Origin: Caulobacter sp. FWC2
GTDB lineage: Bacteria > Pseudomonadota > Alphaproteobacteria > Caulobacterales > Caulobacteraceae
DNA: 64,000 bases
Assembly: GCF_002742625.1 (NCBI RefSeq)
Contig: NZ_PEBF01000001.1
Span: 1,364,001 to 1,428,000 of the forward strand
Direction: 5' to 3'
Both the position numbers and the translations under genes were made by a program. Positions within the stretch are counted from its first letter, which is position 1, and each line of letters begins with the position of its first letter. Shown here piece after piece: positions 2,944 through 38,755 of the stretch. Below the pieces are notes generated by a model. It was not told the DNA's origin, made no database searches, and worked only from the letters and a program-made list of their open reading frames with translations.

Positions 2944-3032
2944 GCCGCATCCGCTGGTCCCGCATAGCCGCGATCGCCGCCGCCATCGGCCTCTGGATCC
3001 TCATCGTCATCGCCGTCCGACACTTCGTCTAG
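2940..3032 (+). CDS. Tiny membrane peptide, 30 aa
   Basis: A GTG overlapping the preceding TGA (GTGA) opens a 30-codon frame: SRIRWSRIAAIAAAIGLW, then ILIVIAVRHFV. It has a basic N-terminus and one hydrophobic helix, the shape of a single-pass inner-membrane peptide. Translational coupling to the upstream frame through the 4-base overlap supports expression. No function can be assigned. Confidence 0.5.
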   Translation: MSRIRWSRIAAIAAAIGLWILIVIAVRHFV

Positions 3033-3094
3033 CGGCCAGGCCCAAGCGCTCGGGGGCCTTCAAGACCGACGCACAAGGAGAGGGGCTTTCTCTC

Positions 3095-3364
3095 ATGTCT
3101 GACGACACTACCCCGCACGCCGACGTTCTCGGCCAAACCGCCCAGGCGCAAATCAAGTCCATCATCGACCGCGTCGAGCGTCTGGCCGCCGAAGAGGCCG
3201 AAATCCGCGAACAGAAGAAGGAGGTCTACGCGGAGGCCAAGGGTAACGGATTCAACGTCCAGATCCTGAAGGCCGTGGTCCGCCTTCGCAAGGTCGATCC
3301 GGCCAAGCGTCAAGAGGCTGACGCCATCCTCGACCTTTATCTCAGCGCCATCGGGGAGATCTAG
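3095..3364 (+). CDS. GapR-like nucleoid protein (DUF2312), phage-encoded
   Basis: The 89-residue protein matches the DUF2312 family along its whole length: STAQ-like start, IKSIIDRVERLAAEEAEIRE, the diagnostic VYAEAKGNGFNVQILKAVVR, then a C-terminal EADAILDLYLSAIGEI. Caulobacter GapR is a coiled-coil tetramer that clamps overtwisted DNA ahead of replication and transcription and stimulates type II topoisomerases. Here it is an early phage gene with an AGGAGAGG ribosome site just upstream. It is probably a second copy beside the host gene, either helping phage DNA relieve supercoils or competing with the host protein. Family assignment is firm; the role in the phage is inferred. Confidence 0.92.
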   Translation: MSDDTTPHADVLGQTAQAQIKSIIDRVERLAAEEAEIREQKKEVYAEAKGNGFNVQILKAVVRLRKVDPAKRQEADAILDLYLSAIGEI

Positions 3365-3367
3365 GTC

Positions 3368-3832
3368 ATGACCACGATCGCATACCGCGACGGCGTCCTG
3401 GCGGCGGACACTCAATCCACCTGCGGCAACCATCGTCAGCCTGGAGAGGCAATAAAGGTGGCCGTCGGGCCGATGGGCCTCGGCACCGCCTGCGGTAGCG
3501 CCGCCTTCTGTGAGACTTGGCTGGCCTGGGTTCGTGGCGATGAGCCTGAGCGCCCGGTTCCGGAACGCGCCGATGAGCACGGCGGTGACTGCGGCATCCT
3601 AATCCATCGGGACGGACGACTTCAGCTGTTCGAGCACAACGGCGCGCATTTTCCGGCGGGTGCCTACTTCGCCGAAGGCACGGGCATGGGGCCTGCCCTC
3701 GGCGCGCTCTACCATGGGGCCACCGCAGAGCAGGCGATCGAGGCGGCTATCGCGCTGGACGTCTTCTCCGGCGGTCGGGTCATGGCTGTTCGCCTAGCCG
3801 ATATTCCGGCCACCCAGGCGGAGGCCGCATAG
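3368..3832 (+). CDS. Proteasome/HslV-like Ntn hydrolase homologue, phage early protein
   Basis: The protein begins MTTIAYRDGVLAADTQSTCG, the strand pattern of proteasome beta and HslV subunits (T-T-I-ay-dGvvlAaD). It continues with a glycine-rich core (MGLGTACGSAAF) and FAEGTGMGPALGALYHGATA, which resembles the G-SG-A helix region. The Thr directly after Met would be the N-terminal nucleophile after Met removal. At 154 residues it is shorter than HslV (about 175). Such phage Ntn proteins have no established function, and protease activity is unproven. It lies in the early operon 4 bases after the gapR-like gene. Confidence 0.75.
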   Translation: MTTIAYRDGVLAADTQSTCGNHRQPGEAIKVAVGPMGLGTACGSAAFCETWLAWVRGDEPERPVPERADEHGGDCGILIHRDGRLQLFEHNGAHFPAGAYFAEGTGMGPALGALYHGATAEQAIEAAIALDVFSGGRVMAVRLADIPATQAEAA

Positions 3833-4105
3833 ATGTCCGCCGCCGTCCACACCACTCCCAAGGCCGCCGTCGGCGTGGACGGCGCACAGCAGCGTTCATG
3901 GCTTTCGGCGGTCGGGGAGGAGCTTCGCCTTCTCTTTGGTCGCCGGACTCCGACGCCGCACGAGGCGGCTCAAGTTCTGGGCCGAGCCGCCGCTGCAAAG
4001 CGCCAGCGCGACAACCTCACGCTTGAGGAGCGTAAGGCCGACAAGATCGCCCAGCTTCGCGCCGAATGCGACGCGGGCTTGGTCTGTGGACGGCCGCGCC
4101 AATGA
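3833..4105 (+). CDS. Hypothetical early protein, 90 aa
   Basis: The N-terminus is low complexity. The C-terminal 60 residues are strongly helical and basic (RSWLSAVGEELRLLFGRRTP, then AAAAKRQRDNLTLEERKADK). It starts immediately after the previous stop and overlaps the rusA-like gene by 4 bases, so it is part of a coupled operon. No family is recognised. Confidence 0.6.
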   Translation: MSAAVHTTPKAAVGVDGAQQRSWLSAVGEELRLLFGRRTPTPHEAAQVLGRAAAAKRQRDNLTLEERKADKIAQLRAECDAGLVCGRPRQ

Positions 4106-4488
4106 TCACCTTCAGCCTGCCGTTTCCGCCCGGCGTCAACAACCTCTATCCACAGGTCAAGACCAAGACCGGCTTTCGGCGGATCACGTCCAAGGAATAC
4201 GCGGTCTGGCAGAAGGCGGCCGGCTTGATGGTTCCTCGCCAAGCGAAGGGCGCAGCGCCGCAGTGGTTCCGCGTCGCGCTGTCCTTCGACCGGCCCGACA
4301 AGGGCAACCGCGTAGACCTGGACGGCAGGATCAAGGTTGTCCTCGACCTTCTGAAGAAGACCGGCGTCATCGCCGACGACCGCTGGAACGACGGAATGAC
4401 CGTCGCGTGGTCCTCGCCCTGCACGGCGCCCGTCTATCCCACCCAACCCATGGTCCAGGTGACCATTGAGCCCCTGGAGGCCGCATGA
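4102..4488 (+). CDS. rusA: RusA-family Holliday junction resolvase
   Basis: The protein starts ITFSLPFPPGVNNLYPQ, the RusA N-terminal strand with its conserved PPG..N segment. It carries the metal-binding acidic motif NRVDLDGRIKVVLDLLKKTG followed by VIADDRW. RusA enzymes are small dimeric nucleases that cut four-way junctions during recombination-dependent phage replication. The size (128 residues) fits the family. ATG at 4102 overlaps the upstream stop, and a longer in-frame start at 4066 is rejected because it adds unrelated residues. Confidence 0.92.
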   Translation: MITFSLPFPPGVNNLYPQVKTKTGFRRITSKEYAVWQKAAGLMVPRQAKGAAPQWFRVALSFDRPDKGNRVDLDGRIKVVLDLLKKTGVIADDRWNDGMTVAWSSPCTAPVYPTQPMVQVTIEPLEAA

Positions 4489-4967
4489 GCCCCGAACTTC
4501 GCAGCTTCATGTACCAGAAGCGCGGCGCGGGTGTGCCGTGGCATCACATCGCCGTCATGGCCGGAAAGCCGCTTTCGCTCTTCGCACCGTACATCGCCCT
4601 AGAGCGCGGCTACGCGGCCACGAAGGCAAAGCGCGATGCTGAGACCGAGGAGGCCAAGGCTAAGAAGCGGACTAAGGCTCCGGTCCCCGGCGAGATCTTC
4701 GTTCCGCCGCCCATCATGCCTGCACTCGCTGAGGAAATCGCGGGCCTCTACGGCGTCACCGTGAGCGACATCATGGGGATTAAGCGCGTGCGAGGCATAT
4801 CCCTCGCCCGCCAACACCTCATGTGGGTCCTGACCCAAGACGCGAAGTTCTCGACGTCCAAGGTTGGGCAATTCCTCGCCGGCCGCGACCATTCCACCGT
4901 CCTGTATGGCGCCAAGAAGCACGCCGAACGCTTGGCTGGCCTTGGCAAGGGGAGGGCTGCGGCTTGA
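4485..4967 (+). CDS. DnaA domain IV-like DNA-binding protein (first copy)
   Basis: The C-terminal half (residues about 85-150) matches the DnaA domain IV fold: LAEEIAGLYGVTVSDIMG, RGISLARQHLMWVL, and the signature helix-turn-helix VGQFLAGRDHSTVLYGAKK, equivalent to the FgGRDHsTV DnaA-box recognition motif. There is no AAA+ ATPase domain. The N-terminal 70 residues are basic and helical, with a WHHIAVMAGKP segment that may be a second HTH. It should bind DnaA boxes or related sites without firing them, as a replication modulator. It is coupled by overlaps to rusA upstream and the methyltransferase downstream. Confidence 0.88.
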   Translation: MSPELRSFMYQKRGAGVPWHHIAVMAGKPLSLFAPYIALERGYAATKAKRDAETEEAKAKKRTKAPVPGEIFVPPPIMPALAEEIAGLYGVTVSDIMGIKRVRGISLARQHLMWVLTQDAKFSTSKVGQFLAGRDHSTVLYGAKKHAERLAGLGKGRAAA

Positions 4968-6319
4968 AGTCCGTCACCATCCACCACGGCGACAGCCGCG
5001 ACGTCCTGAAGGGCCTCGCCGACAACTCGATCGACAGCGTCGTGACGGATCCGCCGTACGCCCTGGTTTCGATCGTGAAGCGCTTCGGCGGCAAGAACGC
5101 TTCGGCCGCCAAGAGCGAGGGGGCCAGTGGCGTCTACAAGCGCGCGTCTGCTGGCTTCATGGGCCAGACCTGGGACACGGGCGAGACCGCCTTTGATCCC
5201 GAGTTCTGGGTCGAGGTGATGCGCGTGCTCAAGCCGGGCGGCCACCTGATCGCGGCCAGTGCGACGCGCACCTATCACCGCCTGGCCGTGGCGATCGAGG
5301 ACGCCGGGTTCGAGATCCGCGATATGATCAGCTGGCTGTACGGCTCGGGCTTTCCCAAGTCCCACGACGTCAGCAAGGGCATCGACAAGGCGAATGGTGA
5401 CGCCCGCCCGGTGACCGGCTCAAGGCTATCGGAGGGCGGTCGCGGCGGCTCTACAGCATCGGTCGGCCAGTCGCTTATTGACGCCGGCCGCGTGATTGAG
5501 ATCACGGCGGCGGCCTCGGCGGCCTCGGCGGCCTCGGCGGCTTGGGAAGGCTGGGGCACCGCCCTCAAGCCCGCCTGCGAGCCTTGGGTTCTAGCCCGCA
5601 AGCCGCTGGGCGGTACGGTCGCGGCCAACGTGCTCGAGCACGGAACCGGCGCGCTCAACATCGACGCGTGCAGGGTCGAAGCGCCGCAAGGCCTGACGGG
5701 CGGTGGAAGTCGTCACGGATCTCCGCTCCACATGGACCGCGCGGCTGGCATCAATCGGGTTAACGAGCGCTCTGAAGCGCACGTCGCCGGGCGCTGGCCT
5801 GCCAACGTAATCCACGACGGCAGCGACGAGGTGGTTGACGCCTTCCCGGACGCTCCTGGTCAACAAGGCGATCTAAACCCCACCGGCCGCGCGCGGCCAA
5901 CGAAGACCTGCCTTGGCGATATGGCGCCCCCGCTGGCGTCCGCCGCGCGCGGCGACAGCGGGTCTGCAGCCCGCTTCTTCTACAGCGCCAAGGCCGATGC
6001 AGACGACCGCCTGGGCTCCAAGCACCCGACAGTCAAGCCGATCGACCTGATGCGCTACCTCTGCCGGCTGGTGACGCCGCCCGGCGGTGTCGTGCTGGAT
6101 CCGTTTGCGGGTTCGGGCTCAACCGGCGTCGCCGCAATGCTGGAGGGCTTCGAGTCCATCCTGATCGAACGCGAGGCGGCGTACGTCGCCGACATCGAGC
6201 GCAAGGTCGCCTTCTACCGGGGCGAGGGCCGGCTGGCCGCCCAGGAGAAGGGAAGGGTTGGATCCGAGTCCGCCGATGCGCTCCCTCTCTTCGCTAATGG
6301 GACAGGAGAAGCGGCATGA
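4964..6319 (+). CDS. Beta-class DNA methyltransferase (N6-adenine or N4-cytosine)
   Basis: Catalytic motif IV DPPY is at residues 29-32, and the AdoMet motif I, VVLDPFAGSGSTGVAAM, lies near the C-terminus after HPTVKPIDLMRYL. That order defines the beta class. TTG at 4964 is the chosen start: it overlaps the upstream stop, has AAGGGGAGGG upstream and leaves the methylase fold intact. The central region contains a four-unit alanine-serine repeat from 9-bp tandem DNA repeats near 5513-5545. No partner restriction enzyme is seen, so it is an orphan methylase that may protect phage DNA or mimic host control by the cell-cycle methylase CcrM. The target sequence cannot be read from the protein. Confidence 0.92.
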   Translation: MKSVTIHHGDSRDVLKGLADNSIDSVVTDPPYALVSIVKRFGGKNASAAKSEGASGVYKRASAGFMGQTWDTGETAFDPEFWVEVMRVLKPGGHLIAASATRTYHRLAVAIEDAGFEIRDMISWLYGSGFPKSHDVSKGIDKANGDARPVTGSRLSEGGRGGSTASVGQSLIDAGRVIEITAAASAASAASAAWEGWGTALKPACEPWVLARKPLGGTVAANVLEHGTGALNIDACRVEAPQGLTGGGSRHGSPLHMDRAAGINRVNERSEAHVAGRWPANVIHDGSDEVVDAFPDAPGQQGDLNPTGRARPTKTCLGDMAPPLASAARGDSGSAARFFYSAKADADDRLGSKHPTVKPIDLMRYLCRLVTPPGGVVLDPFAGSGSTGVAAMLEGFESILIEREAAYVADIERKVAFYRGEGRLAAQEKGRVGSESADALPLFANGTGEAA

Positions 6320-6603
6320 TCGTCTACCTGTCGCTCTGGCGCGGGAAGGTGTCCCTAAAGCGCTCCATGCGAGACATCGCTCACCAAGTGTCCGCTGCCT
6401 ACGGCTTCACGCTCGATGAGCTGCGGGCCGACACCCAGCGGCGAGAAATCGTCCACGCACGTCAGGAGGCCATGGCTTCCATGGCCCAGCAGCCGGGGGC
6501 CAACAAGTCGGCGATCGGCCGTTTCTTCGGACGCACTAGTTGGACGGTGCTGCATGCCATCCGCGCTCACAAGGCCCGCATGGGCGAGCTGGAGGCTGCG
6601 TGA
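6316..6603 (+). CDS. DnaA domain IV-like DNA-binding protein (second copy)
   Basis: Residues about 20-90 again follow DnaA domain IV: IAHQVSAAYGFTLDELRADT, then a helix with VHARQEAMASMAQQ and the HTH IGRFFGRTSWTVLHAIRAHK, aligning with IG..FGgRDHtTVlha.. of DnaA. The GRDH signature is changed to GRTS, so the recognition helix probably has altered specificity. Like the copy at 4485, it lacks an ATPase domain. ATG at 6316 overlaps the methylase stop, and a later ATG at 6367 would keep the fold. The two copies flank the methylase. Confidence 0.82.
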   Translation: MIVYLSLWRGKVSLKRSMRDIAHQVSAAYGFTLDELRADTQRREIVHARQEAMASMAQQPGANKSAIGRFFGRTSWTVLHAIRAHKARMGELEAA

Positions 6604-7463
6604 GCGCTCCGCCCTACATGAAGCTCTATGTCGCCGACTACCTGGGCGACACACACCACCTCGGCGCCCTGGAGCACGGGGCTTACCTGCTGCTGCTCAT
6701 GGGCATGTGGCGGGCTGGCGGCTCACTCCCAGCGGCCGACGCCAACCTGTCGCGCCTGGCCCGCTGCACCCCTGCCGAATGGGATGCGATCAAGGGCGTG
6801 ATCCTGCCGTTCTTCACCCGGTCACGCGGCAAGCTGACCCATGGGCGGCTGGCGGCGGAAATCGCCAAGTACGAAAGCACTTCCGGTAAGCGCTCGGAGG
6901 CGGGAAAACAGGGTGCATCCAAAAAGTCCAATAAGAACAACGCGCAGTCCCAAGCAATTGCTTCCGAAGATGAAGGCAATTGCCGACATAACCAGAACCA
7001 GAACCAGAACCAAAACCAGATAGAAGTTGTTGCTGTAGTAGAGGCGCGGGCGCCGCTCGACGTTTCGGTCGACGATTGGCCGAAGGGCGACGCCAGTGCG
7101 CTGGCCGGCGACCTGAAGGCGCTTGACCGCAACATCGACCCCGATCGGAAGCAAGGCCTGATCCTCACGGTCGGCGAGATCTCCCGCTGGAGGTCGCTCG
7201 GCTATTCCTGGTTCCTCGACGTGATCCCCGCTGTCCAGGCCCATGGGGCAAGGGCGGGTCCAGACCCCGTGAGCACGTGGAAATTCTTCACGCCTGCCAT
7301 CGAGCGAAACCACGCCAACCGAACCCGCCCCATCGACCCCGTTCAGCAGAGCCGACCCCATGAACGCCATGACGCCAGTTCAGCAAAGTTCGCCGCCAAA
7401 CAGCGAAATCTCGCTGTCGCCGCAACTGTCGAGCCTGCTCGACGGGAGCGGTTCATCGGATGA
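6600..7463 (+). CDS. DUF1376/YdaU-like phage replication protein
   Basis: GTG at 6600 overlaps the upstream stop. The N-terminus PPYMKLYVADYLGDTHHLGA followed by EHGAYLLLLMGMWRAGGSLP is the DUF1376 signature, found in phage replication initiators of the YdaU group. A linker with five repeats of Asn-Gln from near-perfect 6-bp tandem repeats (about 6987-7020) leads to a C-terminal domain (WRSLGYSWFLDVIPAVQAHG). It probably recruits replication proteins at the phage origin. Its 3' end overlaps the next gene by 104 bases. Confidence 0.85.
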   Translation: MSAPPYMKLYVADYLGDTHHLGALEHGAYLLLLMGMWRAGGSLPAADANLSRLARCTPAEWDAIKGVILPFFTRSRGKLTHGRLAAEIAKYESTSGKRSEAGKQGASKKSNKNNAQSQAIASEDEGNCRHNQNQNQNQNQIEVVAVVEARAPLDVSVDDWPKGDASALAGDLKALDRNIDPDRKQGLILTVGEISRWRSLGYSWFLDVIPAVQAHGARAGPDPVSTWKFFTPAIERNHANRTRPIDPVQQSRPHERHDASSAKFAAKQRNLAVAATVEPARRERFIG

Positions 7464-8106
7464 GGCTGTCGCGGCGATCGCGGCAAACCCGGTGCTGCTG
7501 ACGGAGGCGGCAAGGGCGCTTCCGGCGCTGAAGGCCAGGGCGACCGATCCGGCAGGCTACCATGGCGTCAAGCGTGTCATCGGACGGCGGTTCGCGCTGT
7601 TCCCGCAGCCGGAGCGCTCGGACGGCGAGTGGGCGGAGTTCTGGGCGGACTATACCGACGTGCTGGGCGACCTGACCGAGGGTGCAGTTGAGGCGGCGAT
7701 GGCGGCATGGGTTCGTCGGCCGGATGCTGAATTTCTGCCCAAGCCAGGCAAACTGCTGGAACTGGCCAGGACCACGCCAAACCGCGCCGTTCGGTCGTAC
7801 GAGCGCGCCAAGGCGGCGATGGACTACAAGCCGCCGCGCCGGCCGCACCCTGCGGACTCGGATCCGAACTACATCGACCCGTCCATACGCCCGCTGCTTC
7901 AGACCTCAACCGGCCGCGTAGAGCCCACGGCGGAGGATAAGGCCCGCGTCCGCGCCCAGCTCGCGCATTATCTCGCCAAGGACGACGAGCGCCGAACCCG
8001 GTCCAAGTCGGTCCAGGCTCCTCGCCCTGACGTGTCTGGACGTGTCGACGAGAGCGGCATCACTCCGCAGCTTCGCTCCCTTCTCGAACGCCAAGCCCAA
8101 GCCTGA
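7360..8106 (+). CDS. Phage replication-region protein, 248 aa
   Basis: The protein has a disordered N-terminus, a central helical domain with aromatic residues (WAEFWADYTDVLGDLTEGAV, PDAEFLPKPGKLLELA) and a charged C-terminus. A short motif occurs at both ends: SPQLSSLL near residue 20 and TPQLRSLL near the C-terminus, suggesting paired peptide ligands. The long 5' overlap with the DUF1376 gene looks real because the N-terminal motif lies inside it. The central domain resembles proteins encoded after phage replication initiators, possibly a helicase loader, but this is not certain. Confidence 0.7.
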   Translation: MNAMTPVQQSSPPNSEISLSPQLSSLLDGSGSSDEAVAAIAANPVLLTEAARALPALKARATDPAGYHGVKRVIGRRFALFPQPERSDGEWAEFWADYTDVLGDLTEGAVEAAMAAWVRRPDAEFLPKPGKLLELARTTPNRAVRSYERAKAAMDYKPPRRPHPADSDPNYIDPSIRPLLQTSTGRVEPTAEDKARVRAQLAHYLAKDDERRTRSKSVQAPRPDVSGRVDESGITPQLRSLLERQAQA

Positions 8107-8131
8107 CCTCAAGACACCCGGGGAATCCACT

Positions 8132-8728
8132 ATGACCAACATCACGAAGACTGAGGTCGATGACCTGACCCACAAGTTGAGCGACGATGGCCTGATGGCC
8201 CGCCCCGCGCTCGGCATGGGCTGGTACGCGATCAAGGCCAAGCCGACCCGCGAGGCCAGCTTTCTCGCCGGGCTGAAACGCCTGAAGCTGGACACCTATC
8301 GTCCCGTCTCGACCCATTTCGTCCGCAAGCGGTCGGGCAAGGTGACGATCAAGCGGCCGATCTTCCCCGGATACGTGTTCGTCTGCTGCTCGATCGCCGA
8401 CCACTATGAGCCGATCCGCGATCTAGACGGCTTTGGGCGCTTCGTTCATCGCGCTGGCACGGTCAATCCGTTCCGCTTCCCTGACATGAAGATCGGTGAC
8501 CTCATGATGCGCCAGCGCTTCGGCGAGTTCGACGACCCGACTCCGAAGGAGGGGAAGTATCGTCCCCAGAAGGGCGACCGCGTCCTAGTCGTGGCGGGCA
8601 AATGGTACGGCTATTTTGCCGAGGTGCTGGGCTTGGTCACCAAGAAGAACCGGGCCAAGCTGCAGTTCGACCTGGGCGGCGCGCCGCAAGAGGTCGAGTT
8701 CACCCAGATGACGCCCGAGGCCGTCTGA
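8132..8728 (+). CDS. NusG/RfaH-like transcription antiterminator
   Basis: The N-terminal NGN domain is recognisable: MGWYAIKAKPTREASFLAGL, then IKRPIFPGYVFVCCSI, the canonical P-lFpGYvFv strand. The C-terminal domain has a KOW-type segment (KGDRVLVVAGKWYGYFAEVL). ATG at 8132 follows a GGGGA ribosome site. Such proteins bind the RNA polymerase clamp. At the boundary between early replication genes and the late packaging operon, it probably lets RNA polymerase read through the long structural operon, taking the place of a lambda Q-like protein. The recruiting DNA or RNA element is unknown. Confidence 0.88.
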   Translation: MTNITKTEVDDLTHKLSDDGLMARPALGMGWYAIKAKPTREASFLAGLKRLKLDTYRPVSTHFVRKRSGKVTIKRPIFPGYVFVCCSIADHYEPIRDLDGFGRFVHRAGTVNPFRFPDMKIGDLMMRQRFGEFDDPTPKEGKYRPQKGDRVLVVAGKWYGYFAEVLGLVTKKNRAKLQFDLGGAPQEVEFTQMTPEAV

Positions 8729-9141
8729 TGCGCGCGCTGATCATCGCTGCCGGCCTGGCGCTCACCGCTGGCGCCGCCCATGCCGACCCGTGCGAGGCCC
8801 CGGTGAGCGGCTATCGCGCCGGCCAGGTCATCGCTGGGCCGGTGATCTACGCTGGCGATGGGGATTCGCTTTGCGTCGCCTTGGGCCGCGACCGGGCGCA
8901 ATGGGTCGAGATCCGCGAGGCCCGTTGGTTCGCCCCGGAGCTGCACGAACCCGGCGGTCGGGAGGCGAAGCGCGTCATGGATCGCCTCGTCGGCCGGCGT
9001 GCCGTCTGCATCGTCGAGCGCGGCCAGAACGGCCGGACATCCAGCTACGACCGAGTCATTGCCGCCTGCAGTGTTGACGGCAGGCCTATCGCCGAGCACA
9101 TGAGACGCGACGGTATCGCCGAGGGCGGGCGAGGGCGCTGA
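8728..9141 (+). CDS. Secreted SNase-like (thermonuclease fold) protein
   Basis: A clear signal peptide (MRALIIAAGLALTAGAAHAD) precedes a staphylococcal-nuclease-like body. VIYAGDGDSLCVAL matches the v-DGDTl strand, WFAPELHEPGGREAKRVM matches D-APEl..--G-eA, and SYDRVIAACSVDGRPIAEHM matches the D.YGR..a.v..dG..l region. The canonical DRYGR arginine environment is altered (TSSYDR), so activity is uncertain. The ATG overlaps the upstream stop by one base. A periplasmic phage nuclease could degrade incoming DNA or salvage nucleotides; both roles are inference. Confidence 0.8.
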   Translation: MRALIIAAGLALTAGAAHADPCEAPVSGYRAGQVIAGPVIYAGDGDSLCVALGRDRAQWVEIREARWFAPELHEPGGREAKRVMDRLVGRRAVCIVERGQNGRTSSYDRVIAACSVDGRPIAEHMRRDGIAEGGRGR

Positions 9142-25867: not shown

Positions 25868-26264
25868 CGCCTGCTCCGTCGCAAGGCCACTTCTCCGACA
25901 TAGCTACAACGTAGGCCGCAACTCCAAGCTCCATCTGCCTAGGCGTAAGGGCACCGGCGTTCCGCTCGAAGTATGATATGTAAGCGTTTGCCATTGCCAT
26001 GGCCGTGCTGGCCCTGAGTTCGGATGAAAGGGGCAAGCAAAACCGGAATTGATCTCCATTCTTCTTTACGGTATTGGCGTCGACGGCGACTATACTCATT
26101 GCTTCACAGGTTTCAGGGTAAATCGAATTGTTATTCTTGCCGTCATTGCGGACGAAAAGATAACAACTGACGTACATGTCGCTAGCACTGGGGGGCTTGC
26201 GCGCAAGCTCGGCATCTTGGGGGATGGTCGACAAGAGCAGAGCTGCGGTAAGTGCGGAAAGCAT
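25860..26264 (-). CDS. Secreted Rap1a/Tai-like protein
   Basis: A signal-like leader (MLSALTAALLLSTIPQDAEL) is followed by a small four-cysteine domain. SCYLFVR near residue 33, a second Cys in ETCEAM, the FRFCLP strand, a helical section ANAYISYFERNAGALTPRQM and a terminal SEKWPC match the Rap1a/Tai pattern (one FCLP and one WPC cysteine). Rap1a proteins of type VI systems are immunity proteins against peptidoglycan amidases, but many members occur elsewhere with unknown roles. The ATG directly abuts the preceding TAG, so translation is probably coupled. A periplasmic immunity or exclusion role is inference. Confidence 0.7.
   Translation of the reverse strand: MLSALTAALLLSTIPQDAELARKPPSASDMYVSCYLFVRNDGKNNNSIYPETCEAMSIVAVDANTVKKNGDQFRFCLPLSSELRASTAMAMANAYISYFERNAGALTPRQMELGVAAYVVAMSEKWPCDGAGDE

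Positions 26265-38680: not shown

Positions 38681-38755
<75 letters not shown>

Follow-up and report, generated by a model that had tools for sequence, protein, structure and literature searches.

Does an early phage operon that unites homologues of host cell-cycle DNA-binding proteins act on the host chromosome, or does it first of all serve the phage's own replication? The question is raised by a segment of a 64,000-nucleotide stretch of DNA (the window) from the 5.5-Mb genome of Caulobacter sp. FWC2, in which the window lies at G000:C1:1364001-1428000. Positions 3095-7463 form a tight early operon of a prophage with all genes on the plus strand, encoding in order GapR, an HslV-like Ntn hydrolase, a 90-aa protein, RusA, a DnaA domain IV protein (#1), a beta-class methylase, a second DnaA domain IV protein (#2), and a DUF1376 protein (Table 1). 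The original prediction, made from the DNA letters alone, had proposed a module for takeover of host replication. The gene content and a partly recurrent gene order are documented by the sequence comparisons described here, which suggest that the operon is first of all devoted to the initiation of phage replication. We consider it likely that the segment is a replication module. The whole explanation, an early DNA-replication operon of a temperate phage with an origin and the accessory roles proposed below, is in our judgment rather probable, and takeover of host replication is possible.

The prophage was delimited with an IMG/VR prophage record of 57,479 bases, which encodes an identical protein and whose offset maps it to approximately -18.9 kb to +38.6 kb of the window. 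We took this span as the integrated prophage, whose right end then falls about 120 bases short of a tRNA-Thr gene (38681-38755). Pfam and PHROGs scans of the window proteins found all of the predicted families in their places. The operon consists of eight genes rather than seven, since the open reading frame (ORF) for the 90-aa protein had been missed; that protein shares 46% identity over 69 aa with one encoded in the equivalent operon of a same-genus genome (L074). The 4-base gene overlaps that had been described are present at five of the seven junctions; at the remaining two, the genes are separated by 3 and 0 bases. The product of the second gene carries both predicted marks of an HslV-like Ntn hydrolase, the family profile and a Thr directly after the initiator Met (MTTIAYRDG start). 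The operon seems to continue past DUF1376 into the next gene and a NusG-like gene; a NusG/RfaH-like gene also lies downstream of the module in 7 of the 59 loci of sample 1 described next.

Recurrence of the module was evaluated in three samples of loci. Sample 1 was collected by DnaA domain IV (DnaA-IV) in viral contigs (80 of 486 confirmed relatives, of which 21 were dropped, leaving 59 non-redundant loci), sample 2 by the methylase in genome and viral contigs (77 loci, 70 used), and sample 3 by DUF1376 in viral contigs (80 loci, of which 78 entered after the window's record L270 and the earlier L186 were left out, and 48 remained after 30 of the 78 were dropped). Sample 3 shares no contig with sample 1. 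The background was 71 viral loci (690 kb) found by the hexamer discussed below, with DUF1376 excluded by construction and hosts not matched. Profile hidden Markov models (HMMs) were seeded with few sequences and iterated on sample 1 itself, where hits to E 1e-3 were accepted; a threshold of E 1e-5 was applied to samples 2 and 3 and to the background.

The loci of sample 1 contained the DUF1376 model in 24 cases, the methylase in 17, RusA in 14, GcrA in 13, DUF1064 in 8, and GapR in 7. DUF1376 was downstream of or overlapping the DnaA-IV gene in 20 of the 24 loci, and all 17 methylases were within 2.5 kb of DnaA-IV on the same strand. The strand was also shared by GcrA (13/13), GapR (7/7), and DUF1376 (23/24). 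These 59 loci include L151, a full-length DnaA according to Pfam that was missed by the P-loop filter and has GcrA and the methylase; without it the counts are 12/58 for GcrA and 16/58 for the methylase. Three further proteins of 401-405 aa (L117, L135, L156) are counted unchecked. The DUF1376 HMM of sample 1 drifted to proteins with other N-termini (L096, L104, L110, L113, L126, L149), and the clean model of sample 3 still matches L096, L104, L110, and L126. Pfam confirmed six of the seven GapR and four of the five GcrA tried; a GapR in L087 was unconfirmed. Sample 2 contained GcrA in 17 loci, DUF1376 in 11, GapR and DnaA-IV in 8 each, and RusA in 5, and sample 3 contained DnaA-IV and GcrA in 17 loci each, the methylase in 11, RusA in 10, and GapR in 7. 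In the background, DnaA-IV, GapR, RusA, and DUF1064 were each found in 0 loci, and GcrA and the methylase in 1 each.

Several loci resemble the operon closely. L271 has, within 3.4 kb, GapR, a borderline GcrA (26.6 bits against a cut-off of 26.9), the methylase, DnaA-IV, and a DUF1376 protein 63% identical to that of the window. L276 has GapR, GcrA, DnaA-IV, and DUF1376. L180, whose methylase is 73% identical, keeps the window's order for DnaA-IV, methylase, DUF1376, and NusG but has a single DnaA-IV. L074 has GapR (73%), the counterpart of the 90-aa protein mentioned above, a gene that by eye looks like a methyltransferase, DnaA-IV, DUF1376, and the protein that follows DUF1376. Parts of the operon surround DnaA-IV genes other than dnaA in further same-genus or same-family genomes (L072, L073, L075, L076, L077), and DUF1376 adjoins DnaA-IV in two Rhizobium phages. 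The original prediction had made conservation of the gene order in relatives a test of itself. The order is kept in part, and no fetched locus other than this prophage and its IMG/VR record showed all eight genes in exactly this order. This rarity would fit an accidental assembly of common phage genes, all the more because both methylases and RusA occur in many phages. The clustering on one strand in sample 1, co-occurrence in the two further samples, and near absence from the background loci make chance neighbourhood very improbable. The recurrence of the families together in phage loci agrees with the earlier view of a coherent replication module with homologues of host cell-cycle DNA-binding proteins.

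DUF1376 genes have an AT-rich dip in mid-gene, often with short repeats, and this is new here. In the window the dip is the second lowest 120-bp GC window of the prophage (43% against a mean of 64.5%) and contains the palindromes AGCAATTGCT and GGCAATTGCC as well as the repeat (CCAGAA)n. The lowest-GC 120-bp stretch of the prophage (~26047-26166, 42%) is outside the replication operon. In sample 3, the deepest dip of the whole locus was inside DUF1376 in 31 of the 48 loci, compared with 0 of 58 other module genes, and the dip was central in 42/48 with a median relative position of 0.47; the proportion was 30/46 when two loci resembling sample-1 proteins were removed. With the clean model, the DUF1376 dip was the deepest of the locus in 11/20 of sample 1. 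By another criterion, a dip matched by at most one-tenth of equal stretches of the locus, 10 of 30 DUF1376-model genes of sample 1 stood out, compared with 0/24 methylases, 0/13 members of the family that follows DUF1376, and 0/15 GcrA. The third-codon GC minimum was central in 24/30 DUF1376-model genes and 10/25 methylases of sample 1, and its median drop was 0.26 in the former, 0.20 in the methylases, and 0.10-0.15 in other families. Since third-codon GC falls in mid-gene, the dip is not explained by the amino acids alone.

Short repeats of at least three copies, mostly hexamers, were found in 21 of 68 DUF1376 genes, which include some relatives with other N-termini, and in 12 of 293 control stretches. 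Iterons of 22-23 bp occurred in L110 and L126 only, and these two proteins share a C-terminal half with an N-terminus that is not DUF1376. The repeat (CCAGAA)n was inside DUF1376 genes in all 8 cases among 73 loci, and in the 48 loci of sample 3 it was inside these genes 23 times and outside twice. It is read as PEPE in 27 genes and as NQNQ in the window, L275, L278, and L285, with PEPE or SEPE in most relatives that have the repeat. The differing frames indicate that the DNA rather than the peptide frame is kept.

These observations suggest that the DUF1376 protein is a phage initiator with the origin inside its own gene. The initiator would act at the AT-rich stretch with its short repeats at ~6.92-7.04 kb, and we regard such an in-gene origin as fairly probable. 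Three qualifications apply. The third-codon contrast between DUF1376 genes and methylases is moderate. In lambda O, the known counterpart, the dip at 0.46 lies among the iterons (0.39-0.48) and is not the deepest of its region, unlike that of most DUF1376 genes. The hexamer was rejected as a specific signature of DUF1376, because a 17-base pattern scan of viral contigs placed 70 of the 80 loci listed elsewhere; among ten non-DUF1376 hexamer ORFs put to Pfam, only L380 gave a DUF1376 match, which was weak and below the cut-off. In the structure model, the N-terminal domain of the DUF1376 protein is confident and the linker is of low confidence. The domain is probably a winged helix, although a fold search with the model returned no match at E <0.001 and the winged-helix matches of a second look were in the noise range.

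For the family of the gene after DUF1376, the best PDB profile match is a 'Helicase loader' (233-residue chain) with a weak E of 0.15, and hhalign places it on the same stretch of lambda P, residues 39-114 (P-value 3e-4, probability 39%). As a helicase loader it would form an O/P-like pair with DUF1376, and RusA would resolve the replication junctions. The in-gene origin signature resembles lambda O, an initiator gene that contains the origin of its phage, and this argues that the operon is primarily the phage's own initiation module.

Both DnaA-IV proteins match Bac_DnaA_C in Pfam, and the AAA+ ATPase domain (Bac_DnaA) was found in neither, in agreement with their earlier description as ATPase-less; both are without DnaA domains I-III. 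The model of #1 (mean predicted local distance difference test, pLDDT, 88.7) shows a helical, helix-turn-helix-like N-terminal domain on a long helix, followed by DnaA domain IV. The C-terminal domain matches 1j1v/3pvp in sequence, and its best Foldseek matches are DnaA DNA-binding domains on box DNA (root-mean-square deviation 1.2); no convincing fold match to the N-terminal domain was present among the Foldseek results. In E. coli DnaA, R399, D433, and H434 contact the DnaA box. The alignment indicates that #1 keeps the equivalents of all three, whereas in #2 R399 is replaced by Q and D433/H434/T435 by T/S/W. Box-reading contacts on the domain IV fold are thus predicted for #1 and not for #2. 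R399 is kept in 59 of 69 single-domain sequences, a set that counts both window proteins, a host dnaA fragment (L078), and the non-match L079. Conservation at D433-T436 says little, since these positions were constrained by the search pattern, which R399 was not.

The prophage (57.6 kb) contains no TTATNCACA and one TGATCCACA. Its own genome has 47 TGATCCACA (G-boxes) against 1 for the reversed control, a strong over-representation, and TTATNCACA is not over-represented (9 against 20). Around 58 proteins with kept contact residues, DnaA boxes were absent or at background. Boxes with at most one mismatch in DUF1376 genes and their 300-bp flanks numbered 1.08 against 1.11 expected in 36 loci with DnaA-IV and 1.03 against 1.04 in 32 loci without it. 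A phage origin built of DnaA boxes is therefore unsupported. The absence of enrichment speaks against another role for the DnaA-IV proteins, namely binding to the phage origin beside DUF1376 and helping to open it, much as DnaA assists plasmid initiators. The proximity of the genes would suit such helpers, as DnaA-IV is within 2.5 kb of DUF1376 in 17 of the 17 sample-3 loci that have it, with 4-base overlaps in several (L271, L276, L111, L077). The fetched stretches of 31 of the 48 sample-3 loci yielded no DnaA-IV, and we consider the helper role doubtful.

Since #1 keeps its box-reading residues while the prophage has almost no boxes, host sites are favoured as its target. In the mechanism that we propose, #1 most likely occupies host DnaA boxes at oriC and DnaA-dependent promoters as an ATPase-less competitor, a step that implies binding to TGATCCACA/TTATCCACA DNA and that we hold tentatively. 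#2 may by now recognize a different sequence, which could be a phage operator or the origin. A wider alternative is that both DnaA-IV proteins, GapR, and the methylase act jointly and mainly on the host chromosome to stop or re-time initiation. It would account for the box-reading residues of #1 and most relatives, the box-poor prophage in a genome rich in G-boxes, and the way in which GapR, GcrA, methylase, and DnaA-IV recur in changing mixes. The lost contacts of #2 and the location of all parts in a phage replication operon beside the likely initiator count against it, as do two points on methylation given below, and we judge it unlikely as the main function. Alternatively, the DnaA-IV proteins could be reused as helix-turn-helix proteins that switch early or late phage genes, like GcrA or Cro-type proteins. 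The second helix-turn-helix-like domain in the model of #1 and the changed contacts of #2 would agree with such local regulation, and GcrA takes the place of a missing DnaA-IV in the operons of L066, L275, and L277 and stands beside it in L075 and L080. This role is less probable still, given that most relatives keep the DnaA-box contact residues (D433-T436 partly built into the search pattern, R399 not).

The closest relatives of #2 are the DnaA-IV proteins of L073 (42%), L080 (41%), and L074 (40%), and tblastn of the #2 protein (6316-6600) found no phage record. Its short SLWRG leader has counterparts in 15 of the 120 homologues listed, 67-74 residues ahead of the RDHTT motif. An 89% identical homologue of #1 exists (P0002). 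Two DnaA-IV genes around a methylase were found among the fetched loci, which do not include the contig of P0002, only in this prophage; a candidate for a second flanking gene in L079 (4640-5071) was dismissed as a weak match to our own HMM with nothing by Pfam. Fusions of DnaA-IV with DUF1376 were not present among 120 proteins listed of 7876 found. Other arrangements were observed: DnaA domain IV is joined to a PF02467 domain, which we take to be WhiB, in P0007, P0019, and P0028 (one source being an Acidimicrobiales genome), and a viral protein (L097:6722-7642) has two DnaA domain IV stretches by Pfam. Elsewhere, the Caulobacter genome has its own DnaA, its own GapR, a PF01555 methylase in a 381-aa frame that is probably CcrM, and a third DnaA-IV gene without an ATPase frame. 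This third gene, at L071:9335-9706 (-), near G000:C1 3857433, encodes 123 aa, keeps R399 and D433, and has R in place of H434; it adjoins a sugar-kinase-like gene (by eye) in surroundings that look chromosomal. Two Bac_DnaA_C matches are present in many same-genus genomes.

The methylase shows the beta-class motif order, with DPPY at residues 29-32 and FAGSGST at 381-387 of 451, and is 71% identical to DMCA_087 of Caulobacter phage DMCA. Its best solved relative is the CcrM structure 6pbd (E 1e-14). The alignment covers two stretches only, ending at 416/451 and 259/366, and the C-terminal part of CcrM (after residue ~260 of 366) is not aligned, so that the methylase was rejected as a CcrM orthologue. 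The earlier statement that the operon holds mimics of DnaA, GapR, and CcrM was accordingly too strong, in view of the methylase and of #2 with its altered contacts. The prophage is poor in GANTC, with 43 sites against 267 expected (ratio 0.16). The depletion is weaker in 25 kb of flanking host DNA (41 against 115, ratio 0.36), and the DMCA stretch resembles the prophage (10 against 69). The 43 sites are dispersed over the prophage, 9 of them in 3014-9141. The phage itself thus offers few CcrM-type sites, which, like the missing CcrM C-terminal part, disfavours a concerted action on the host chromosome. Within the replication module, the methylase would mark DNA at some site. According to Decewicz et al. 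(PMC5537653), Sinorhizobium prophage methylases unrelated to CcrM methylate GANTC, which suggests that methylase function can converge. The GANTC phage enzymes described there have NPPY/F/W, whereas the window methylase has DPPY as in CcrM, a contrast that settles nothing about its target.

Both the PF10073 domain and the length of 89 aa identify the first gene as GapR. Its identity to the GapR encoded elsewhere in this chromosome is 80%. The GapR of DMCA is 88% identical to this host protein, and the two phage copies are 76% identical to each other. Because each phage copy is closer to the host protein than to the other phage copy, the gene appears to have been captured from Caulobacter-type hosts, probably more than once. 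A GapR tree, in which one 'phage' row (L134) is from a contig also bearing a full dnaA, required six label changes at best, and its well-supported branches force only one gain. A GapR taken from such a host would follow overtwisted DNA ahead of the phage forks. The GapR domain was also seen as the N-terminus of longer viral proteins of 244-371 aa (L112:2447-3562, L143:1096-1929, L147:590-1324).

A more general idea is that alphaproteobacterial phages share a portable cell-cycle override kit, in which an ATPase-less DnaA-IV blocks or re-times host initiation by occupying host DnaA boxes, together with captured GapR, GcrA, and methylase in varying mixes, while the phage fires the origin in its DUF1376 gene; we offer this as speculation that is more apt to fail than to hold. 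If DnaA-IV does compete with DnaA, it would be a naturally occurring dominant inhibitor of initiation, useful in cell-cycle research. The signature of an in-gene origin provides DUF1376, 'function unknown' in Pfam, with a concrete candidate role as a phage initiator.

Table 1. Features of the operon and its downstream neighbours, with positions in the window
Feature	Position	Strand	Evidence or remark
GapR, phage copy, 89 aa	3095..3364	+	PF10073 E 8e-28
HslV/proteasome-like Ntn hydrolase, 154 aa	3368..3832	+	phrog_1040 (peptidase HslV family) E 1e-29; no Pfam match
90-aa protein	3833..4105	+	no Pfam or PHROG match
RusA-type Holliday junction resolvase	4102..4488	+	PF05866 E 1e-5, 26.5 bits vs cut-off 22.8; phrog_34 E 3e-17
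DnaA domain IV protein #1	4485..4967	+	PF08299 (Bac_DnaA_C) E 2e-14
Beta-class N6/N4 DNA methylase, 451 aa, TTG start	4964..6319	+	PF01555 (N6_N4_Mtase) E 2e-24; phrog_67 E 3e-67
DnaA domain IV protein #2, 95 aa	6316..6603	+	PF08299 (Bac_DnaA_C) E 3e-11
DUF1376 protein	6600..7463	+	PF07120 E 4e-19; phrog_3992 (primosomal protein) E 5e-30
Candidate phage origin	6921..7040	+	43% GC dip inside DUF1376 gene, palindromes, hexamer repeat
(CCAGAA)n hexamer repeat	6992..7008	+	read NQNQ in window
Protein after DUF1376, start 7360 or 7492	7360..8106	+	weak candidate for a lambda-P-like helicase loader; also next to DUF1376, on its downstream side, in several relatives
NusG/RfaH-like antiterminator	8132..8728	+	PF02357 E 7e-14; phrog_6386

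Other features of the prophage were noted outside the operon. A direct repeat, TGACATATTCCG, occurs at 682-693 and 716-727 between two genes identified by eye, a repressor-like one running leftward (335-637) and a Cro-like one running rightward (731-925), and is a probable operator. To the left of the window, the prophage seems to have a C5-cytosine-methylase-like gene (L070:8707-9924, -) and a MazE/AbrB-like gene (L070:18889-19128, +), each recognized by eye from the protein start.

Among known systems, the O/ori/P arrangement of lambda is the nearest in layout. The AT-rich stretch is at ~0.46-0.47 of the initiator gene in both lambda O and DUF1376, the next gene here is a possible helicase loader, and both genes are in an early operon. 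DUF1376 shows no significant sequence homology to lambda O (hhalign E 0.48), its repeats are mostly hexamers, and the module adds DnaA-IV, GapR, and the methylase. With DnaA, the DnaA-IV proteins share the fold of the DNA-binding domain and #1 shares the box-contact residues; they differ in the missing domains I-III, in the helical N-terminal domain of #1, and in the leader and altered contacts of #2. Caulobacter phage DMCA (PQ480021) has GapR, DUF1064, GcrA, and the related methylase in one early stretch, but it has a replicative helicase, and no DnaA-IV was found there.

In a literature search that left subscription papers mostly outside, neither a report of a single-domain DnaA within a phage replication module nor one of an origin inside DUF1376/YdaU genes was found; deposited phage records already annotate proteins with DnaA-like domains. 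Earlier reports describe GcrA in phiCbK-like phages together with the takeover idea (PMC3556154), GANTC methylases that belong to the replication modules of prophages in Sinorhizobium and Paracoccus (PMC5537653), a GapR presented in 2025 as a first for a phage, Erythrobacter phage R34L1 (PMC12185513), and, in a table for S. meliloti phiLM21-like prophages, GcrA and a single DnaA (COG0593) (PMC12429752). They also discuss the interest of phages in the cell cycle, with no positional asymmetry of DnaA sites in the phages studied (PMC9437464), and mention Bac_DnaA_C-like ends on transposase relatives (PMC6006769). The GcrA, CcrM-like methylases, and GapR of phages were thus noted separately in what these sources offer, whereas here several of these families, in mixes that vary among loci, share one replication operon with the bare DNA-binding domain of DnaA, present in this prophage as two single-domain genes.

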